Shown here: piece after piece, positions 3,363 to 25,008 of the stretch | How the letters are laid out: every line of letters starts with the position of its first letter | Numbering within the stretch: the first letter of the stretch is position 1 | Virus record (IMG/VR): IMGVR_UViG_3300044640_001026 | Coordinates: 1-26,230 of that record | DNA from: a virus | DNA length: 26,230 bases | Reading direction: 5' to 3' (one strand) | The notes under the pieces: generated by a model | What the model saw: the letters and a program-made list of their open reading frames with translations, nothing else | Told to the model about the DNA's origin: nothing | Database searches by the model: none | Made by a program: the position numbers and the translations under genes

Positions 3363-4217
3363 ATGGATAAAGCTAAACAACTCGCCGCCCTGCTGCGCGA
3401 CACCGCACAAAGCGCCTCTAACGCCATTGCCAGCAATGTCAGCGGCCCCGTAGACCTTCTTTCTATGGGACTCAAGGGGATAGGCTTACCCATGCCACAA
3501 AACCCCGTAGGCGGCTCGCAATGGATGGCAGACAAAGGATTGACCCGCGATGTGCCGATGGGCGCACCTCGAATCATTGGCGAGACATTGGGCATGGCTG
3601 GCCCTGCGCTGGCGACTAACTTTGCCCCGCAAATAGCGCGTGGTGCTTTGGGTGCGATGGATAATCTCTCGGCACCAGCAACCATGAACAAGCAGGCCGG
3701 CGTGATTGCTTTCCCCGATTATTTTACACAGCCAGAGAAGGTTGCCGCAGTTAAAAAACATGCAGAAGATTTTGTAGATTCATTAAAGGCGCGAGGCTTA
3801 CGCGGCTCAGTTGAGCATTCAGGGAGCCGCGCTGGGCCTAGTTCTTATGTGAAGGTTCATAACCCAGTAACAGGGGCGGGAGTTTTTGACAACACGCCAT
3901 TTAGATTCTCTGACCACTCAAAAGGGCCTGTGCAGTCGCAATATGTTCGAGAAATACGGGGAAGCCACGATTCTGGATTAAATATTGGCGAATACGACGA
4001 TTATTTAAATTCGCTTGCAAAAGTAACTCCAGAACAGCAATTGGCTTATGACACAAGAGTAGCGCAGTATCTCAAAGAGCAAGAATTGTATAACTCGCCA
4101 TTAGAAGTTGCCGCGCGGAACGCTCGAAAAAGTGTTTTTAAGGCTTATCAAGAAGCTAGGAATTCAGGCGCAGATTTTATTAAAGTGTTTAGTAATAACG
4201 GCAAACCTTTATTTTAA
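3363..4217 (+). CDS. Two-part protein: phage-conserved N-terminus plus variable C-terminal domain
   Basis: 284 aa, ATG abutting the previous stop. Residues 1 to about 115 (LLSMGLKGIGLPMPQNPVGGSQWMADKG..., ending LSAPATMNKQAGVI) resemble an N-terminal module I remember in phage proteins at this position, where it precedes quite different C-terminal domains. From about residue 118 (DNA about 3715) the sequence changes: codons become AT-richer and the protein becomes charged, with SGSRAGPSSYVKVHNP, an RFSDHSKG motif and a helical tail ending KVFSNNGKPLF. I cannot assign the C-terminal part; a small effector or toxin-like domain carried on a virion-targeting module is a reasonable inference. Confidence 0.6.
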   Translation: MDKAKQLAALLRDTAQSASNAIASNVSGPVDLLSMGLKGIGLPMPQNPVGGSQWMADKGLTRDVPMGAPRIIGETLGMAGPALATNFAPQIARGALGAMDNLSAPATMNKQAGVIAFPDYFTQPEKVAAVKKHAEDFVDSLKARGLRGSVEHSGSRAGPSSYVKVHNPVTGAGVFDNTPFRFSDHSKGPVQSQYVREIRGSHDSGLNIGEYDDYLNSLAKVTPEQQLAYDTRVAQYLKEQELYNSPLEVAARNARKSVFKAYQEARNSGADFIKVFSNNGKPLF

Positions 4218-17796: not shown

Positions 17797-18306
17797 TTAC
17801 TTAATCACCAGACGCTGAGACTGCACCAGCTTTGCGCCTGGAACATCGTCACCAGCTTGCAACGCTTCTTTGATGCGTGCTTTATCAGGTGCAGCCACGG
17901 GCGGTTTTGGCTCTGGTGTGCGCCACAGTTCTTTTGGCAAACTGAGCGGGTCAAACACCTCCACGGCTACCGGGTTGTTTTGAATGCTGATGGCAAACAG
18001 TGGGCATTCAATCTTTGTAATGCCAGTGCGTTGCATGTTGTCCAACAAATACTTGCGTACACCAGCCGCTACAGCAGCGCGGCGTGCTTTCAGGCCTGTC
18101 AAACGGGCTATCTCTGCATCAATTGCGCCATCATGGGCGGTTGCCCCGCGTGCAACAAATTCAAGCGCCTGAGCCTTGTCTTTGAATTCGTCAACAATGC
18201 CGCTTGCTTCAATCGTGTCGTCAATCGTGGCAAGGTCAAAATCACCGTCTGCCAGCGTTTCGGCTAGCTTTATATATTCGTTGCTGATGTTGTAAAGGGC
18301 TGTCAT
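17797..18306 (-). CDS. Gp157 family protein
   Basis: 169 aa. Clear family recognition: N-terminal MTALYNISNEYIKLAETL, the helical middle AEIARLTGLKARRAAVAAGVRKYLLDNMQRTGITKIECPLFAISIQNNPVAVEV, and the C-terminal PDKARIKEALQAGDDVPGAKLVQSQRLVIK are the hallmarks of Siphovirus Gp157 (PF05565). The family was named from lactic streptococcal phages, where it was linked to phage resistance, but it normally sits in recombination/replication gene clusters next to single-strand binding genes, as here. The exact biochemical role is unknown. It starts 8 bases after the SSB-like gene. Confidence 0.9.
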   Translation of the reverse strand: MTALYNISNEYIKLAETLADGDFDLATIDDTIEASGIVDEFKDKAQALEFVARGATAHDGAIDAEIARLTGLKARRAAVAAGVRKYLLDNMQRTGITKIECPLFAISIQNNPVAVEVFDPLSLPKELWRTPEPKPPVAAPDKARIKEALQAGDDVPGAKLVQSQRLVIK

Positions 18307-19545: not shown

Positions 19546-19802
19546 GCTGCCATCCCATACCGAGCATCAAGCTCAAGGCGCTCTGGATAGCGGCGGCGCT
19601 CTTGCTGCTGCTCAAGATATGCGGCTTCGACTTGTGCGTCTTTCAGGTCTTTTTCAGCCTTAGACAATTGGTCTGCCCAATCCTCGATTGACCATGACAT
19701 ATAGTTGCAGATTGGGTCATCTGCATAGTGCGCGTGCTGGTCGTGCAAGAAAGCAATAAGCTGCTTTGGCGACAGCTTTGGGCTTGGTGCTGGTGTGTTC
19801 AT
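19542..19802 (-). CDS. Small phage hypothetical protein with C-terminal helix
   Basis: 86 aa, ATG 19802 overlapping the stop of the pentapeptide gene (ATGA). It begins MNTPAPSPKLSPKQLIAFLHDQHAHYADDPICNYMSW and continues into a long charged helix (EDWADQLSKAEKDLKDAQVEAAYLEQQQERRRYPERLEL), probably a coiled coil. No known domain. Its end overlaps the next gene by 4 bases. Confidence 0.6.
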   Translation of the reverse strand: MNTPAPSPKLSPKQLIAFLHDQHAHYADDPICNYMSWSIEDWADQLSKAEKDLKDAQVEAAYLEQQQERRRYPERLELDARYGMAA

Positions 19803-20383
19803 AATGCGGCCTTTGCAGCACCACCCAGAACAGCACCGCCCAGATCAGCGCCAACCAGATCAGCATCACGCAGAACAGCATCACGCAGATCAGCGCCACC
19901 CAGAACAGCATCACTCAGATCAGCGCCAACCAGGGAAGCGCCACTCAGATCAGCGCCAACCAGGGAAGCGCCACGCAGATCAGCGCCACGCAGATCAGCG
20001 CCACGCAGATTAGCGTGATGCAAATAAGCATCACTCAGGCCAGCGCCACGCAGATCAGCGCCACGCAGATCAGCGCCACGCAGATTAGCGTGATGCAAAT
20101 AAGCATCACGCAGATCAGCATCACGCAGAACAGCATCACGCAGATCAGCGCCACGTAAATCAGCGCCACTCAGATCAACATCACGCAAATCAACGCCACT
20201 CAGATCAACGCGACGCAGATAAGCGCCACGCAAATCAGCGTCACTCAGATAACGACGCGGACGTTGTGCAACCGCGTTTTCAAGCGCGTAACGGATTGCA
20301 AAGAAGCGCGGCACATCGTCCGGCACTTCGCATTCAAACAAAACTTTGCCGGACTCCCAGCGGCTCATAATTTGCATTTTCAT
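19799..20383 (-). CDS. Pentapeptide-repeat protein
   Basis: 194 aa, GGAGGAG before ATG 20383. Residues 1-44 form a small leading domain (MKMQIMSRWESGKVLFECEVPDDVPRFFAIRYALENAV). From about residue 45 to 190 the protein is an almost unbroken series of about 28 A(D/N)LxG-type pentapeptides (DLRGADLRGADLRGA), expected to fold as a right-handed quadrilateral beta-helix of about seven coils with an Asp/Arg-rich surface. Family members such as MfpA and Qnr mimic DNA and bind gyrase, but most phage examples have no known partner. Gyrase binding is a hypothesis only. The regularity is mirrored in 15-bp DNA repeats. Confidence 0.9.
   Translation of the reverse strand: MKMQIMSRWESGKVLFECEVPDDVPRFFAIRYALENAVAQRPRRYLSDADLRGAYLRRVDLSGVDLRDVDLSGADLRGADLRDAVLRDADLRDAYLHHANLRGADLRGADLRGAGLSDAYLHHANLRGADLRGADLRGASLVGADLSGASLVGADLSDAVLGGADLRDAVLRDADLVGADLGGAVLGGAAKAAL
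19815..20250. repeat. 15-bp tandem repeats coding the pentapeptides
   Basis: On the + strand the unit cagatcagcgccacg and close variants recur in strict 15-bp phase, one unit per pentapeptide. Within it a 75-bp higher-order unit is duplicated, giving the repeated protein block DAYLHHANLRGADLRGADLRGA with a period of 25 residues. Extended frames on the + strand here are by-products of the repeat. Confidence 0.85.
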
Positions 20384-20919: not shown

Positions 20920-21141
20920 ATGTCAAAACAGCAAGCCATGCTGCCCAACGACTACAGCCGCTGCACAGGCACGAACTGCGACCGGGCTACCCAGTGCCAG
21001 CGCTTCACCGACAAAGGCACTGGCGACCGTATCAGCATGCACGACGCGGCGCACGGCTGCATTGGCTTTATCGAGGTTGTGAAACCTGTTAAACAAAAAC
21101 CCGCGCATGGCGTGTTTGGAAACAAATACGGATTGATATGA
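20920..21141 (+). CDS. Small Cys-containing phage protein
   Basis: 73 aa, GAGGAG upstream. MSKQQAMLPNDYSRCTGTNCDRATQCQRFTDKGTGDRISMHDAAHGCIGFIEV has the C-x4-C...C...C spacing of a small phage protein family common in proteobacterial prophages (MLPNDYSRC-x-G start). The four Cys may bind a metal ion. It overlaps the next gene by 4 bases (ATGA at 21138). Confidence 0.65.
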   Translation: MSKQQAMLPNDYSRCTGTNCDRATQCQRFTDKGTGDRISMHDAAHGCIGFIEVVKPVKQKPAHGVFGNKYGLI

Positions 21142-21515
21142 CATTTATTGTTGGACAAGAGCTGTTTTGGGTTTGGTCAGACCTATCATTAACTAATCAA
21201 CTTGTGACTGTTACAAAGGTTGGTCGCAAGTGGGTAGAACTGTCAAACTTTTACCGCTTTGATATGCAGACAGGCTGGGGTGATAGCAAAGGCTATGCTA
21301 CGCCGGGACGCATTTATTTAAGCGAGGCCGCTTATGATGCCGAGCAATTGGCTGATATGGGTGTGTACCATGCTTTTAACAGGTTGAAAAGCCTTATGCA
21401 GCGTTCGGCCCCAAAAAAGGGCGTAAAAATTGAAGACATTTACGAGGCGGCGCGTCTGCTTAACTTGCATGATGCTAATGACTACATAAACATTCAATCG
21501 ATAGGGTATGTATGA
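21138..21515 (+). CDS. Phage beta-barrel-type early protein
   Basis: 125 aa, starting in an ATGA overlap. FIVGQELFWVWSDLSLTNQLVTVTKVGRKWVELSN followed by RFDMQTGWGDSKGYATPGRIYLSEAAYDAE is a pattern I know from phage early proteins with an N-terminal small beta-barrel; the C-terminal third is helical. The final 11 codons lie inside one copy of a 33-bp direct repeat that recurs 268 bp downstream. Function unknown. Confidence 0.65.
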   Translation: MTFIVGQELFWVWSDLSLTNQLVTVTKVGRKWVELSNFYRFDMQTGWGDSKGYATPGRIYLSEAAYDAEQLADMGVYHAFNRLKSLMQRSAPKKGVKIEDIYEAARLLNLHDANDYINIQSIGYV

Positions 21516-22166: not shown

Positions 22167-22411
22167 CTAAGTTTGATAAAGATGGCTACGGTTTTTTATT
22201 GAAGTTTGTACGCAAAACAAAAGGCCGGCCTTTTTGCTCTGAGGAAGTAACACTTGCTGCGATTAAGGCTGGCATTGCCCCCCCGGAATTACGGCACTGG
22301 GGCAAGATATTTACTCAAGCCGCAAAGGACGGCTATATCAGCCGCTGTGATGTTCCGTTTCGACGCACATTAGGTAATGGAACTTTGACTTTGGGTTGGG
22401 TTGCAGCTTGA
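22163..22411 (+). CDS. Small basic phage protein, possible winged-helix
   Basis: 82 aa, starting in an ATGA overlap. MTKFDKDGYGFLLKFVRKTKGRPFCSEEVTLAAIKAGIAPPELRHWGKIFTQAAKDGYISRCDVPFRRTLGNGTLTLGWVAA has three short helices followed by a beta-hairpin (GYISRCDVPFRRTLGNGTLTLGW), compatible with a winged helix-turn-helix. This is judged by eye and is not a family match. A strong promoter overlaps its stop codon. Confidence 0.55.
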   Translation: MTKFDKDGYGFLLKFVRKTKGRPFCSEEVTLAAIKAGIAPPELRHWGKIFTQAAKDGYISRCDVPFRRTLGNGTLTLGWVAA

Positions 22412-22437
22412 CACGCATTAAAAACTTGGTGTAACAT
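22408..22437 (+). promoter_or_regulatory. Sigma70-type promoter upstream of the C4-like RNA
   Basis: A perfect TTGACA (22408-22413), an 18-base spacer and TAACAT (22432-22437, four of six matches). It overlaps the stop codon of the preceding gene. Predicted transcripts would begin near 22444, just before the paired elements of the RNA locus, and would read into the replication genes. Confidence 0.6.
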
Positions 22438-22456
22438 TGTGATTCAGAACACGGCT

Positions 22457-22563
22457 GTAGTCGCCAATTAGGACAAATGTTTAATTTTTTAATAAACCTG
22501 CACACAGACCCATCAAGGCGCTCGCCGACTTGTCCTGGGAAGACTACCTGTGTGCGGGTTTTT
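22457..22563 (+). ncRNA. C4-antisense-RNA-like structured element
   Basis: Arms 22495-22507 and 22548-22560 form a 13-bp stem with one G-U pair, closed by a U-run (22559-22563). Inside is a GGC/GCC hairpin followed by GACTTGTCCT, which I associate with the phage C4 antisense RNA family (P1/P7 immI). TTGTCCT (22530-22536) is complementary to AGGACAA (22470-22476), and GACTAC (22542-22547) to GTAGTC (22457-22462), reproducing the two a/b pairings of C4. The AGGA element is the ribosome binding site of a leader ORF at 22477. Family membership is from memory of the motif; structure and complementarity are directly visible. Confidence 0.6.
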
Positions 22564-22581
22564 CAAAAAGTTACGCTATGA
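22477..22581 (+). CDS. 34-aa leader ORF across the C4-like element (icd-like)
   Basis: ATG 22477, preceded by TTAGGA, reads MFNFLINLHTDPSRRSPTC... through the whole RNA hairpin and ends at TGA 22579-22581, overlapping ATG 22578 of the next gene as ATGA. Its ribosome binding site is complementary to the loop TTGTCCT. By analogy with P1, where C4 RNA blocks translation of icd and thereby of the coupled ant gene, this is the expected regulatory reading frame. The peptide itself has no recognisable domain. Confidence 0.45.
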   Translation: MFNFLINLHTDPSRRSPTCPGKTTCVRVFQKVTL

Positions 22582-22778
22582 CCGACAAAGAACGCGAAAT
22601 AAAAATCCAGCGCTGCGCATCAGGAATTGAGGCCGCCATGCACGATTACGAACAATCTGGCTATTTCCATGATCGTGGCCGTGCTGACGGCTACCGCATT
22701 GAAATGGAAGCGCTGATTAAAGGTCGTGGCGCTGACCGAGTGGCCGCAATGGAGCAGGCTTTGGGGTTGGCCGCATGA
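22578..22778 (+). CDS. Small phage protein coupled to the leader ORF
   Basis: 66 aa from ATG 22578, MTDKEREIKIQRCASGIEAAMHDYEQSGYFHDRGRADGYRIEMEALIKGRGADRVAAMEQALGLAA. There is no Shine-Dalgarno sequence; the start overlaps the leader ORF stop (ATGA), so translation is probably coupled. An alternative TTG at 22530 would place the start inside the RNA hairpin. Helical, charged, no domain recognised and no resemblance to Ant. It overlaps the replication gene by 4 bases. Confidence 0.5.
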   Translation: MTDKEREIKIQRCASGIEAAMHDYEQSGYFHDRGRADGYRIEMEALIKGRGADRVAAMEQALGLAA

Positions 22779-23620
22779 GAGATTACGGCAAGGTTCATAC
22801 CTCGTTTTGGACAAGTGCGGATATGCGTGAGCTGTCAGAGGATGGCAGGACGATGGCAATCTATCTACTGACCTGCCCACATGGGACGATTGCGGGGGTC
22901 TTTCGTTTGCCTGATGGCTACGCAAGCGAAGACCTCAAATGGGAATCAGAGCGGGTTAAATCAACCCTTTCGGAACTGTTGGTAAAGGGTTTTGCAAGCC
23001 GTTGTGAACAGACTAAATGGGTTTGCGTAACCAAGCATTTGGACTGGAATCCACCAGAAAACCCAAACCAGAAAAAAGCGGTTGCAAAGATTATTTCACA
23101 AGTGCCAGATTCTTGTGATTGGAAGGCTGGTTTCATTGGTAAATACGGTGCAGAGCTAGGGATTGAGGCTAAACCCTTGCCGAACCCTTCCGCGACCCTT
23201 CCTGAACCAGTAACAGTAACAGTAGCAGTAACAGGAACAGTAGAACCTAAAGGTTCTTTGTCGCCAGCAAAGCTGACAACCTCAAATTGCCCGACAGAAA
23301 AAATTATCGAGATCTATCACGATGTTTTACCCGAGTTGCCTGCTGTACGCATTAAAACCGCAGGCCGTGATCGGGCGGTAAAAGCCCGTTGGCAGTGGGT
23401 TTTGACAAGCAAAAAACCAGACGGCACGCGCCGCGCTGAAACGACTGATGCTGGTCTGGAGTGGTTCAAAAACTATTTCACCCGCACCCGTGATAACGAA
23501 TTTTTGATGGGGCAAACCCCCCGCACTGGCGACCATAAAAACTGGCAATGCGATTTTGACTTTTTGCTGACAGAAAAAGGCATGAAGCACGTAATCGAAA
23601 AAACCCGAGAAACAGCATGA
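22775..23620 (+). CDS. Phage replication initiator / helicase-loader-like protein
   Basis: 281 aa, starting in an ATGA overlap. The N-terminal about 110 residues (DYGKVHTSFWTSADMRELSEDGRTMAIYLLTCPH...GVFRLP...STLSELLVKGFASRCEQTKWVCVTKHLDWNPPENP) have the winged-helix pattern of phage replication proteins; a low-complexity linker (VTVTVAVTGTV, from short repeats near 23210-23250) leads to a C-terminal domain (EKIIEIYHDVLPELPAVR...GLEWFKNYFTRTRDNEFLMG) typical of O-like or loader proteins. It overlaps the DnaB helicase gene by 4 bases, the classic arrangement for origin recognition plus helicase loading. Confidence 0.78.
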   Translation: MRDYGKVHTSFWTSADMRELSEDGRTMAIYLLTCPHGTIAGVFRLPDGYASEDLKWESERVKSTLSELLVKGFASRCEQTKWVCVTKHLDWNPPENPNQKKAVAKIISQVPDSCDWKAGFIGKYGAELGIEAKPLPNPSATLPEPVTVTVAVTGTVEPKGSLSPAKLTTSNCPTEKIIEIYHDVLPELPAVRIKTAGRDRAVKARWQWVLTSKKPDGTRRAETTDAGLEWFKNYFTRTRDNEFLMGQTPRTGDHKNWQCDFDFLLTEKGMKHVIEKTRETA

Positions 23621-25008
23621 ACGCAATGACAGAAATGCAATATTTGCGCACGCCACCGCACAGTTTGGAGGCTGAAAGCGCGGTACTCGGTGCGCTGATG
23701 CTGGACAACAGGGCTTGGGACACTTGCGCCGACGTGTTGGCCTCTGCCGACTTTTTCCGCAGTGAGCATCAGGTGATTTTTTCTTGCATCGCTGGTTTGC
23801 TGATGGCGAACAAAAGCGCGGACGTTATCGCGGTTTTTGAGCGACTGCAAGCCGACGAAAAAGCAGATCATTGCGGCGGCTTGGCTTACCTGCATTCATT
23901 GGCGCAATACGTGCCAAGCGCGGCAAACCTACGCGCCTACAGCGAGATTGTGAAAGAACGCGCTGTAAGCCGCAAACTGGTAAACGCAGGCAATGACATT
24001 CAGGCGTTAGGTTTTGACCAGCAAGAGCCTATTGCAGACCGTCTGGACAAGGCCACGGCTAGTCTGACCGCTTTGATTGGTAACGGCGCGTCAACCGATT
24101 GGGTTGAAGTCGATTCAATGGTTGTCAGCTTTTTGGACAACATCGAGCAAAAAGCCAGCGGTGCAATGCTGGATAACGTCATCTCTACCGGGTTGCGCGA
24201 CCTTGATGAAATTCTAGAGGGTGGGTTTAGGCCGGGGCAGCTCATCATTATCGCGGCACGCCCGAGCATTGGTAAGTCGGCGCTGGCTGTAAATTGCACG
24301 GTGCATTCAACTTTGCAAGGCAAAAAAGAGGGGTTTTTCTCGCTTGAAATGCCAAAAGAGGAATTGACACAGCGCATTGTGTCGGGCTTGTCGCACGTTC
24401 ATTTGTCCAAAATCCGCAAAGCGAAAAACCTGCAAGAACACGACTGGCCGCGCATGATCGAAGCCATCGAGCAGATGCGCGGTTTGCCTTTGTACATTGC
24501 AGAGCAGGCCAGCCCAAACATCAATCAGATACGGGCTAAAGCCCGGTTATTGCGCCGCAAGTATGGCCTGGACAAGCTGACGATTGATTACATCGGCTTG
24601 ACCAGCGGGACAAACCCAAAAGAGCCGCGCCATCAGCAGCTAGGCGAAGTCACACGCGGTTTAAAAGGCTTGGCTAAAGAGCTGAATATTCCAATCATTG
24701 CCCTGGCGCAATTGAGCCGGGGACTGGAGCAGCGCACCAACGGCAGGCCGATGCTGTCAGACCTAAAAGACAGCGGCGATATTGAGCAGGACGCGGATGT
24801 TGTGATTTTCATTGACCGCCCGTATCACACCAATAACGACTTAGGCCAGCAGTGGGAACATTACGCAGAACTGATTGTGGCAAAGCACCGCAACGGCGCG
24901 ACAGGCAGCATTAACGCCCGGTATGTAGGAGGCAATGTGCAGTTTTTAAATTGGGACGGCGCAAAGCCTGAAAAGCTGGGCGCAAAAAGAACAGGGAGCA
25001 ACCTGTGA
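23617..25008 (+). CDS. dnaB: Replicative DNA helicase, DnaB family
   Basis: 463 aa. The N-terminal domain (PPHSLEAESAVLGALMLDNRAWD) and the RecA-like C-terminal domain are both complete: Walker A AARPSIGKSAL near residue 222, SLEMPKEELTQR, Walker B LTIDYIGL, and the late motifs SDLKDSGDIEQDADVVIFIDR and VAKHRNGATGSI. It unwinds the phage replication fork as a hexamer, loaded by the protein encoded just upstream. Length is normal for the family. The Q of the usual DYLQL Walker B context is G here. Confidence 0.95.
   Translation: MNAMTEMQYLRTPPHSLEAESAVLGALMLDNRAWDTCADVLASADFFRSEHQVIFSCIAGLLMANKSADVIAVFERLQADEKADHCGGLAYLHSLAQYVPSAANLRAYSEIVKERAVSRKLVNAGNDIQALGFDQQEPIADRLDKATASLTALIGNGASTDWVEVDSMVVSFLDNIEQKASGAMLDNVISTGLRDLDEILEGGFRPGQLIIIAARPSIGKSALAVNCTVHSTLQGKKEGFFSLEMPKEELTQRIVSGLSHVHLSKIRKAKNLQEHDWPRMIEAIEQMRGLPLYIAEQASPNINQIRAKARLLRRKYGLDKLTIDYIGLTSGTNPKEPRHQQLGEVTRGLKGLAKELNIPIIALAQLSRGLEQRTNGRPMLSDLKDSGDIEQDADVVIFIDRPYHTNNDLGQQWEHYAELIVAKHRNGATGSINARYVGGNVQFLNWDGAKPEKLGAKRTGSNL

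Follow-up and report, generated by a model that had tools for sequence, protein, structure and literature searches.

A candidate self-complementary leader RNA of a phage replication operon, similar in design to C4, P4 CI and IsrK and outside their families

Ahead of the replication genes of a viral sequence of 26,230 nucleotides (IMG/VR record IMGVR_UViG_3300044640_001026; this whole stretch is called the window here) lies a hairpin whose loop is complementary to sequences in its own leader, among them the presumed ribosome site of a short open reading frame. Our preferred reading, which we hold tentatively, is that this is a regulatory leader RNA of the replication operon that resembles C4, P4 CI and IsrK, lies outside those families and is a singleton. 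According to this model, a structured, self-complementary leader RNA would be transcribed from a promoter at 22408 into the replication operon, and its loop would carry an element b', directed against a Shine-Dalgarno (SD) sequence, and a specificity element a', which would pair with elements b and a, 50-90 nt further upstream in this leader. The ribosome site of the leader ORF would be hidden by the pairing. Translation of that ORF would open the hairpin and pass ribosomes on to the gene at 22578 and then, by way of overlapping stop and start codons, to the initiator and DnaB genes; if the ORF is left untranslated, the likely effect of the hairpin and its U-run would be to terminate transcription or to block 22578. 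We infer the production of the RNA, the pairing of a and b with b' and a' inside the cell, be it in cis or through a short RNA released to act in trans, and the effect on replication-gene output.

The leader, its hairpin and the coupled genes

The coordinates of the features are collected in Table 1. The promoter that the earlier note had proposed is present, and 10 of its 12 positions agree with the consensus. The promoter scan is by itself not significant (2 found against 2.2 expected); the region is conserved in three sister contigs from IMG/VR (L085-L087), one of which, L085, keeps both boxes as TTGACA-16-TAATAT, with 16-nt spacing and a better -10 box than that of the window. The scan returned no minus-strand antisense promoter over or near the hairpin.

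Table 1. Features of the leader region and the genes that follow it (positions in the window)
Feature	Position	Strand	Remarks
Sigma-70-type promoter, TTGACA-18-TAACAT	22408..22437	+	-35 box overlaps the stop codon of gene 22163
Third block, ACACGG	22449..22454	+	can pair with CTGTGT (22548-22553) in an alternative cis fold
Element a, GTAGTC	22457..22462	+	a1-like target; sole copy in 22380-22900 at <=1 mismatch
Element b, TTAGGACAA	22468..22476	+	b1-like target; includes AGGA, 3 nt before ATG 22477
34-codon leader ORF	22477..22581	+	spans the hairpin; ends in ATGA with gene 22578; not coding-like
Hairpin, 14-bp stem and 40-base loop with inner helices, then U-run	22494..22563	+	candidate small RNA body or attenuator
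Element b', TTGTCCTGG	22530..22538	+	complement of b; partly paired within the loop in the minimum-free-energy (MFE) fold, only UCC clearly free
Element a', GACTAC	22542..22547	+	complement of a; unpaired in the predicted hairpin
66-aa protein	22578..22778	+	without a family match
Replication initiator / DnaD-like (DnaD/O-like) helicase loader	22775..23620	+	PHROG matches, IMG/VR relatives
DnaB-type replicative helicase	23617..25008	+	

The stem-loop proper occupies 22494-22561 and the U's come next. It had been described with a stem of 13 bp, which measures 14 bp; the loop of 40 bases and the U-run are as described. The fold of 22486-22570 has z = -4.19 (about -4.2 s.d.), with none of 200 shuffles equally good, and that of the wider stretch 22440-22570 has z = -1.7 only. 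The inner helices of the predicted fold are CCCA/UGGG and CAAG/CUUG. Both complementary pairs that had been pointed out, TTGTCCT with AGGACAA and GACTAC with GTAGTC, are there and are collinear: the core of the b/b' match joins 22470-22476 to 22530-22536, the extended match joins 22468-22476 to 22530-22538, and a and b are separated by 5 to 7 nt.

The earlier note was also right about the 34-codon ORF, its ATGA overlap with the gene at 22578 and the lack of an SD sequence before that gene. The other genes of the early operon that lack an SD (21138, 21512, 22775, 23617 and 25269) start inside the ATGA of the preceding ORF, so that a link of this kind between the 34-codon ORF and 22578, as suggested, is in keeping with the local style. 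The claim that AGGACAA is the ribosome binding site of the leader ORF holds up only in part: AGGA does lie beside the ATG, but the gap is 3 nt, where other AGGA-type sites on this strand of the window keep a distance of 5-9 nt, and the presumed site looks poor. The codon score of this ORF is -0.24 to -0.27 bit per codon, as against a mean of +0.17 to +0.33 for five neighbouring genes. Beyond 22578 the operon leads, as had been said, into the replication module with no recognisable antirepressor: the 66-aa protein is followed by the initiator and then by DnaB.

Elsewhere in the window, the major capsid protein resembles its counterpart in Myxococcus phage Mx8 (53%). Some 1 kb before the RNA locus, at 21138-21515, an early protein matches Pfam PF24203 (phage ProQ C-terminal-like domain) and is possibly encoded by an RNA chaperone gene. 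On the minus strand, the leftward early block includes a pentapeptide-repeat-like protein with ADLRGADL runs (19799-20383), and 17797-18306 encodes a Mu Gam-like DNA end-protection protein (PHROG 253) in this phage with an Mx8-like capsid protein.

Relatives, chance and rival readings

Covariance searches with the Rfam models place the RNA in no known family. Neither C4 (RF01695), the check that the earlier note had suggested, nor c4-a1b1 (RF03163) matches at the gathering threshold or at E<=10, while the C4 model recovers its positive controls in P1 (68.8 bits) and P4 (74.9 bits); isrK (RF01394) has no match in the window at E<=10, nor int-alpA (RF02996) in 22350-22700 at the same cut-off. 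Filing the RNA as C4 or int-alpA is thereby ruled out. Protein-context scans with the products of 22578 and 22163 and the initiator as queries found no homologue of the RNA, DNA similarity to phages and plasmids gave chance-level matches only, and the exact stem pattern does not recur in IMG/VR. A single-sequence covariance model, which is weak, found only itself among 60 sequences and 369 genomes; some of the collections used in these searches omit records very near the window. Of the three findings that the earlier note had set down as refuting its proposal, two thus apply as far as sequence can tell: the covariance search gave no hit, and there is no homologue in which compensatory changes of the a/b pairs could be seen.

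The weight of the complementarity was therefore judged against chance. With a helix-chain score of 13, the window is equalled by 27 of 5000 controls when both parts are shuffled and by 37 of 5000 when the loop is; in a test run alongside the proven pairs of P1 and P4 its p value is 0.0025-0.0065. The same test gives P1 a1b1 a score of 14 (p 0.005), P1 a2b2 15 (0.0035), P4 seqA 15 (0.0015) and P4 seqC 12 (0.032), and in helix count and spacing the pairing of the window equals these proven pairs (12-15). Its duplex energy is weaker, at -20 to -21 against -27 to -37 kcal/mol (window p 0.03-0.08). Among 498 comparable hairpins from 1.68 Mb of strand, 18 reach a score of 13; two of these are the window locus on its two strands (the minus-strand match at 3734-3818 is the same inverted complementarity read on the opposite strand) and several are duplicates, which leaves roughly 2%. 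A chance rate of this size makes the complementarity suggestive, not conclusive.

The same chance rate and the marginal duplex energy lend themselves to a simpler account, in which the locus is a plain attenuator or intrinsic-terminator-like hairpin, the a/b match is fortuitous and the 34-codon ORF is untranslated or has no regulatory role. We regard this account as unlikely, if a serious contender. A GC-rich stem with a U-run on its 3' side is what it would lead one to expect, and the poor ribosome site and codon score of the leader ORF agree with it; yet intrinsic terminators seldom have a loop of 40 bases, and a terminator scan of the window did not call the hairpin. Nor would it account for complementarity that sits precisely on the AGGA beside the ATG in the order and spacing of C4, and it would make 22578 the sole gene of the early operon with neither an SD sequence nor coupling.

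An improbable variant retains the pairing and dispenses with a diffusible RNA: a purely cis-acting two-state switch in which 22449-22476 pairs with 22530-22553 (the loop and the first part of the 3' stem strand) and thereby prevents the hairpin, with the fold set by ribosome occupancy of the leader ORF as in an attenuator or in RepY/RepZ. It draws on the collinear complementarity of ACACGG, GTAGTC and TTAGGACAA to TTGTCCTGG, GACTAC and CTGTGT, and, judging from their order, the leader segments would meet b' and a' during transcription before the 3' stem strand is made. Inclusion of the third block, however, gives the extended pairing a p value of only about 0.03, and the three-block cis fold, when forced, reaches -32.7 kcal/mol against -40.5 for the MFE structure, about 8 kcal/mol less stable. 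Moreover, in an intact stem only about 1 nt lies between a' and the 3' strand, and full pairing of a and b in cis seems sterically barred as a result; full pairing would then occur between molecules, as in C4, or with the stem opened, which favours action in trans.

It is scarcely credible, and we reject it on the start sites of relatives and the want of a credible homologue, that the region is an N-terminal coding extension of 22578 with an incidental hairpin: the frame is open from 22485 (FFNKPAHRPIKALADLSWEDYLCAGFSKSYA-M...) with a near-neutral codon score of -0.009, but upstream of TTG 22530 it contains no codon usable as a start, in L085, L086 and L090 the related proteins start at the methionine equivalent to 22578, and the best database match to the extension has E = 5.

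Sister phages, the cassette slot and int-alpA RNAs

The regulatory leader RNA that we prefer also fits into a slot whose contents change between related phages. L085-L087 share 97-99% identity with the window as far as the promoter, gene 22163 included, and diverge at about 22450; right after the promoter (22450 in the window, about 3290 in the sisters) both the leader RNA and the replication protein downstream become different, and the sharp breakpoint at 22450 is a module-swap boundary. In the same, syntenic slot the sisters carry an int-alpA-type RNA (24 bits, E ~1e-4, a weak match), followed by a relative of the 66-aa protein of the window (39-41% identity in L085/L086), to which a protein in L090 is related as well. 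In L002, whose initiator is 54% identical to that of the window, an int-alpA RNA scoring above threshold (51 bits) ends 27 nt before the initiator gene. That contig also has a C4 RNA further upstream: the two RNAs, at 2729-2818 (C4) and 3907-3973 (int-alpA), stand about 1.1 kb apart before the replication initiator, and an integrase is present too.

No function assigned to int-alpA was found in the literature searched. In 31 int-alpA loci the loop of the last hairpin is more complementary to the downstream sequence of its own locus than to the corresponding sequences elsewhere in the set (mean longest match 5.81 against 4.85; 0 of 1000 permutations as good), with no effect for the upstream sequence (127 of 300); in this set one locus, L100, was taken from the wrong strand and at least one more, L115, was out of register. 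A second set of 23 loci, drawn independently, gave 6.17 against 5.06 downstream (0 of 2000 permutations) and again no effect upstream (787 of 2000). The loci (L105-L162) are partly related, and the permutation preserves their composition. The loops have two targets, one directly after the stem and the other at the ribosome site of the next ORF, as in L137, where ATCCTTTCA matches TGAAAGGAT. These sequence matches suggest that int-alpA may be an anti-SD regulator, acting as a pseudoknot or as an antisense RNA, and the comparison thus offers a candidate function for it, in that the loop co-varies with the SD of the following gene. As the sisters carry an int-alpA-type RNA behind the same promoter and int-alpA loops match their own SD, the slot would seem to hold interchangeable anti-SD leader RNAs.

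We speculate further, and give the idea little credence, that the RNA of the window acts in trans as an allele-specific immunity RNA with an origin separate from that of C4, that it lies inside the leader ORF that it represses, and that it and the int-alpA-type anti-SD RNAs are cassettes that can replace one another after a single conserved promoter of phage replication operons. A tyrosine integrase was found neither in the window nor in the sister contig G004, which leaves lysogeny, and immunity with it, unproven; the contig is possibly incomplete. If the idea were true, control of the C4/CI type, with an anti-SD loop and a specificity element in an early leader, would be a recurring design reached by unrelated RNAs, and such RNAs would be swapped like immunity cassettes at the entrance to the replication operon.

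Comparison with C4, P4 CI, IsrK and plasmid leaders

The earlier note had seen in the locus the logic of immI of P1/P7, and the order of the elements, their spacing and the chain score of 13 support this in part; the RNA is no member of the C4 family, and the ribosome site is weak. In the P1 record, where Rfam finds both C4 and c4-a1b1, a1 and b1 lie upstream of c4 with a1-7-b1 spacing, a2 and b2 lie downstream, and icd, overlapping ant1, comes next. As in P1, the window has a and b upstream and b' then a' in the hairpin, enclosed by an outer stem with a' beside its 3' strand; the targets belong to the same transcript, the pairing score is comparable and a short ORF is ATGA-coupled to the next gene, as icd is to ant1. 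Unlike C4, the window RNA lacks a covariance match and an antirepressor, a U-run follows its stem and the leader ORF overlaps the RNA. C4 consists of a P1 stem with P2 and P3 hairpins and carries b' in the P3 loop; the window has the outer stem and no P3. RNase P processing of C4 follows a GG(W) rule at the 5' end of the stem (PMC5320573), whereas the stem of the window begins with AAACC and has no GG at this site. A second target pair corresponding to a2-b2 is missing downstream: 22380-22900 contains no second GTAGTC, and AGGACAA recurs there with one mismatch only at 22808 and 22847, both inside the next genes.

Two supposed departures from the known systems fall away. The position of the target upstream of the hairpin is shared with a1/b1 of P1, and control of a replication operon is already exercised by P4 CI, an RNA that scores as C4; neither feature is new in kind. 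P4 CI blocks replication-gene expression through pairing with seqA and seqC (PMC4825925), and the P4 genome scores 74.9 bits for C4, 60.8 for isrK and 44.1, just under the cut-off, for c4-a1b1, in the leader of the alpha primase operon. By position and predicted pairing, the window likewise has an RNA in a replication-operon leader that pairs with leader targets; P4 CI, however, belongs to the C4 family by true homology; an isrK-like hairpin and a c4-a1b1 element lie upstream of it and seqC lies downstream, and no counterpart of these was found in the window. IsrK of Gifsy-1 controls orf45, whose stop codon overlaps anrP as AUGA (PMC4825925). It shares with the window a leader RNA with alternative folds, a hidden ribosome site and a short ORF with an AUGA overlap, and differs in matching the isrK model, in activating translation in trans and in having an antirepressor as its downstream gene.

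In the RepY/RepZ and tap/repA leaders of IncI and IncFII plasmids, too, a regulatory hairpin couples a replication gene to the translation of a leader peptide. Their antisense RNA comes from the opposite strand, whereas near the locus of the window no minus-strand promoter was found. The int-alpA RNA, finally, is unrelated to the RNA of the window in sequence and inner structure and has its targets downstream instead of upstream, but it occupies the same slot after the same promoter in the sister phages and has the same outer stem with a U-run and an anti-SD loop.
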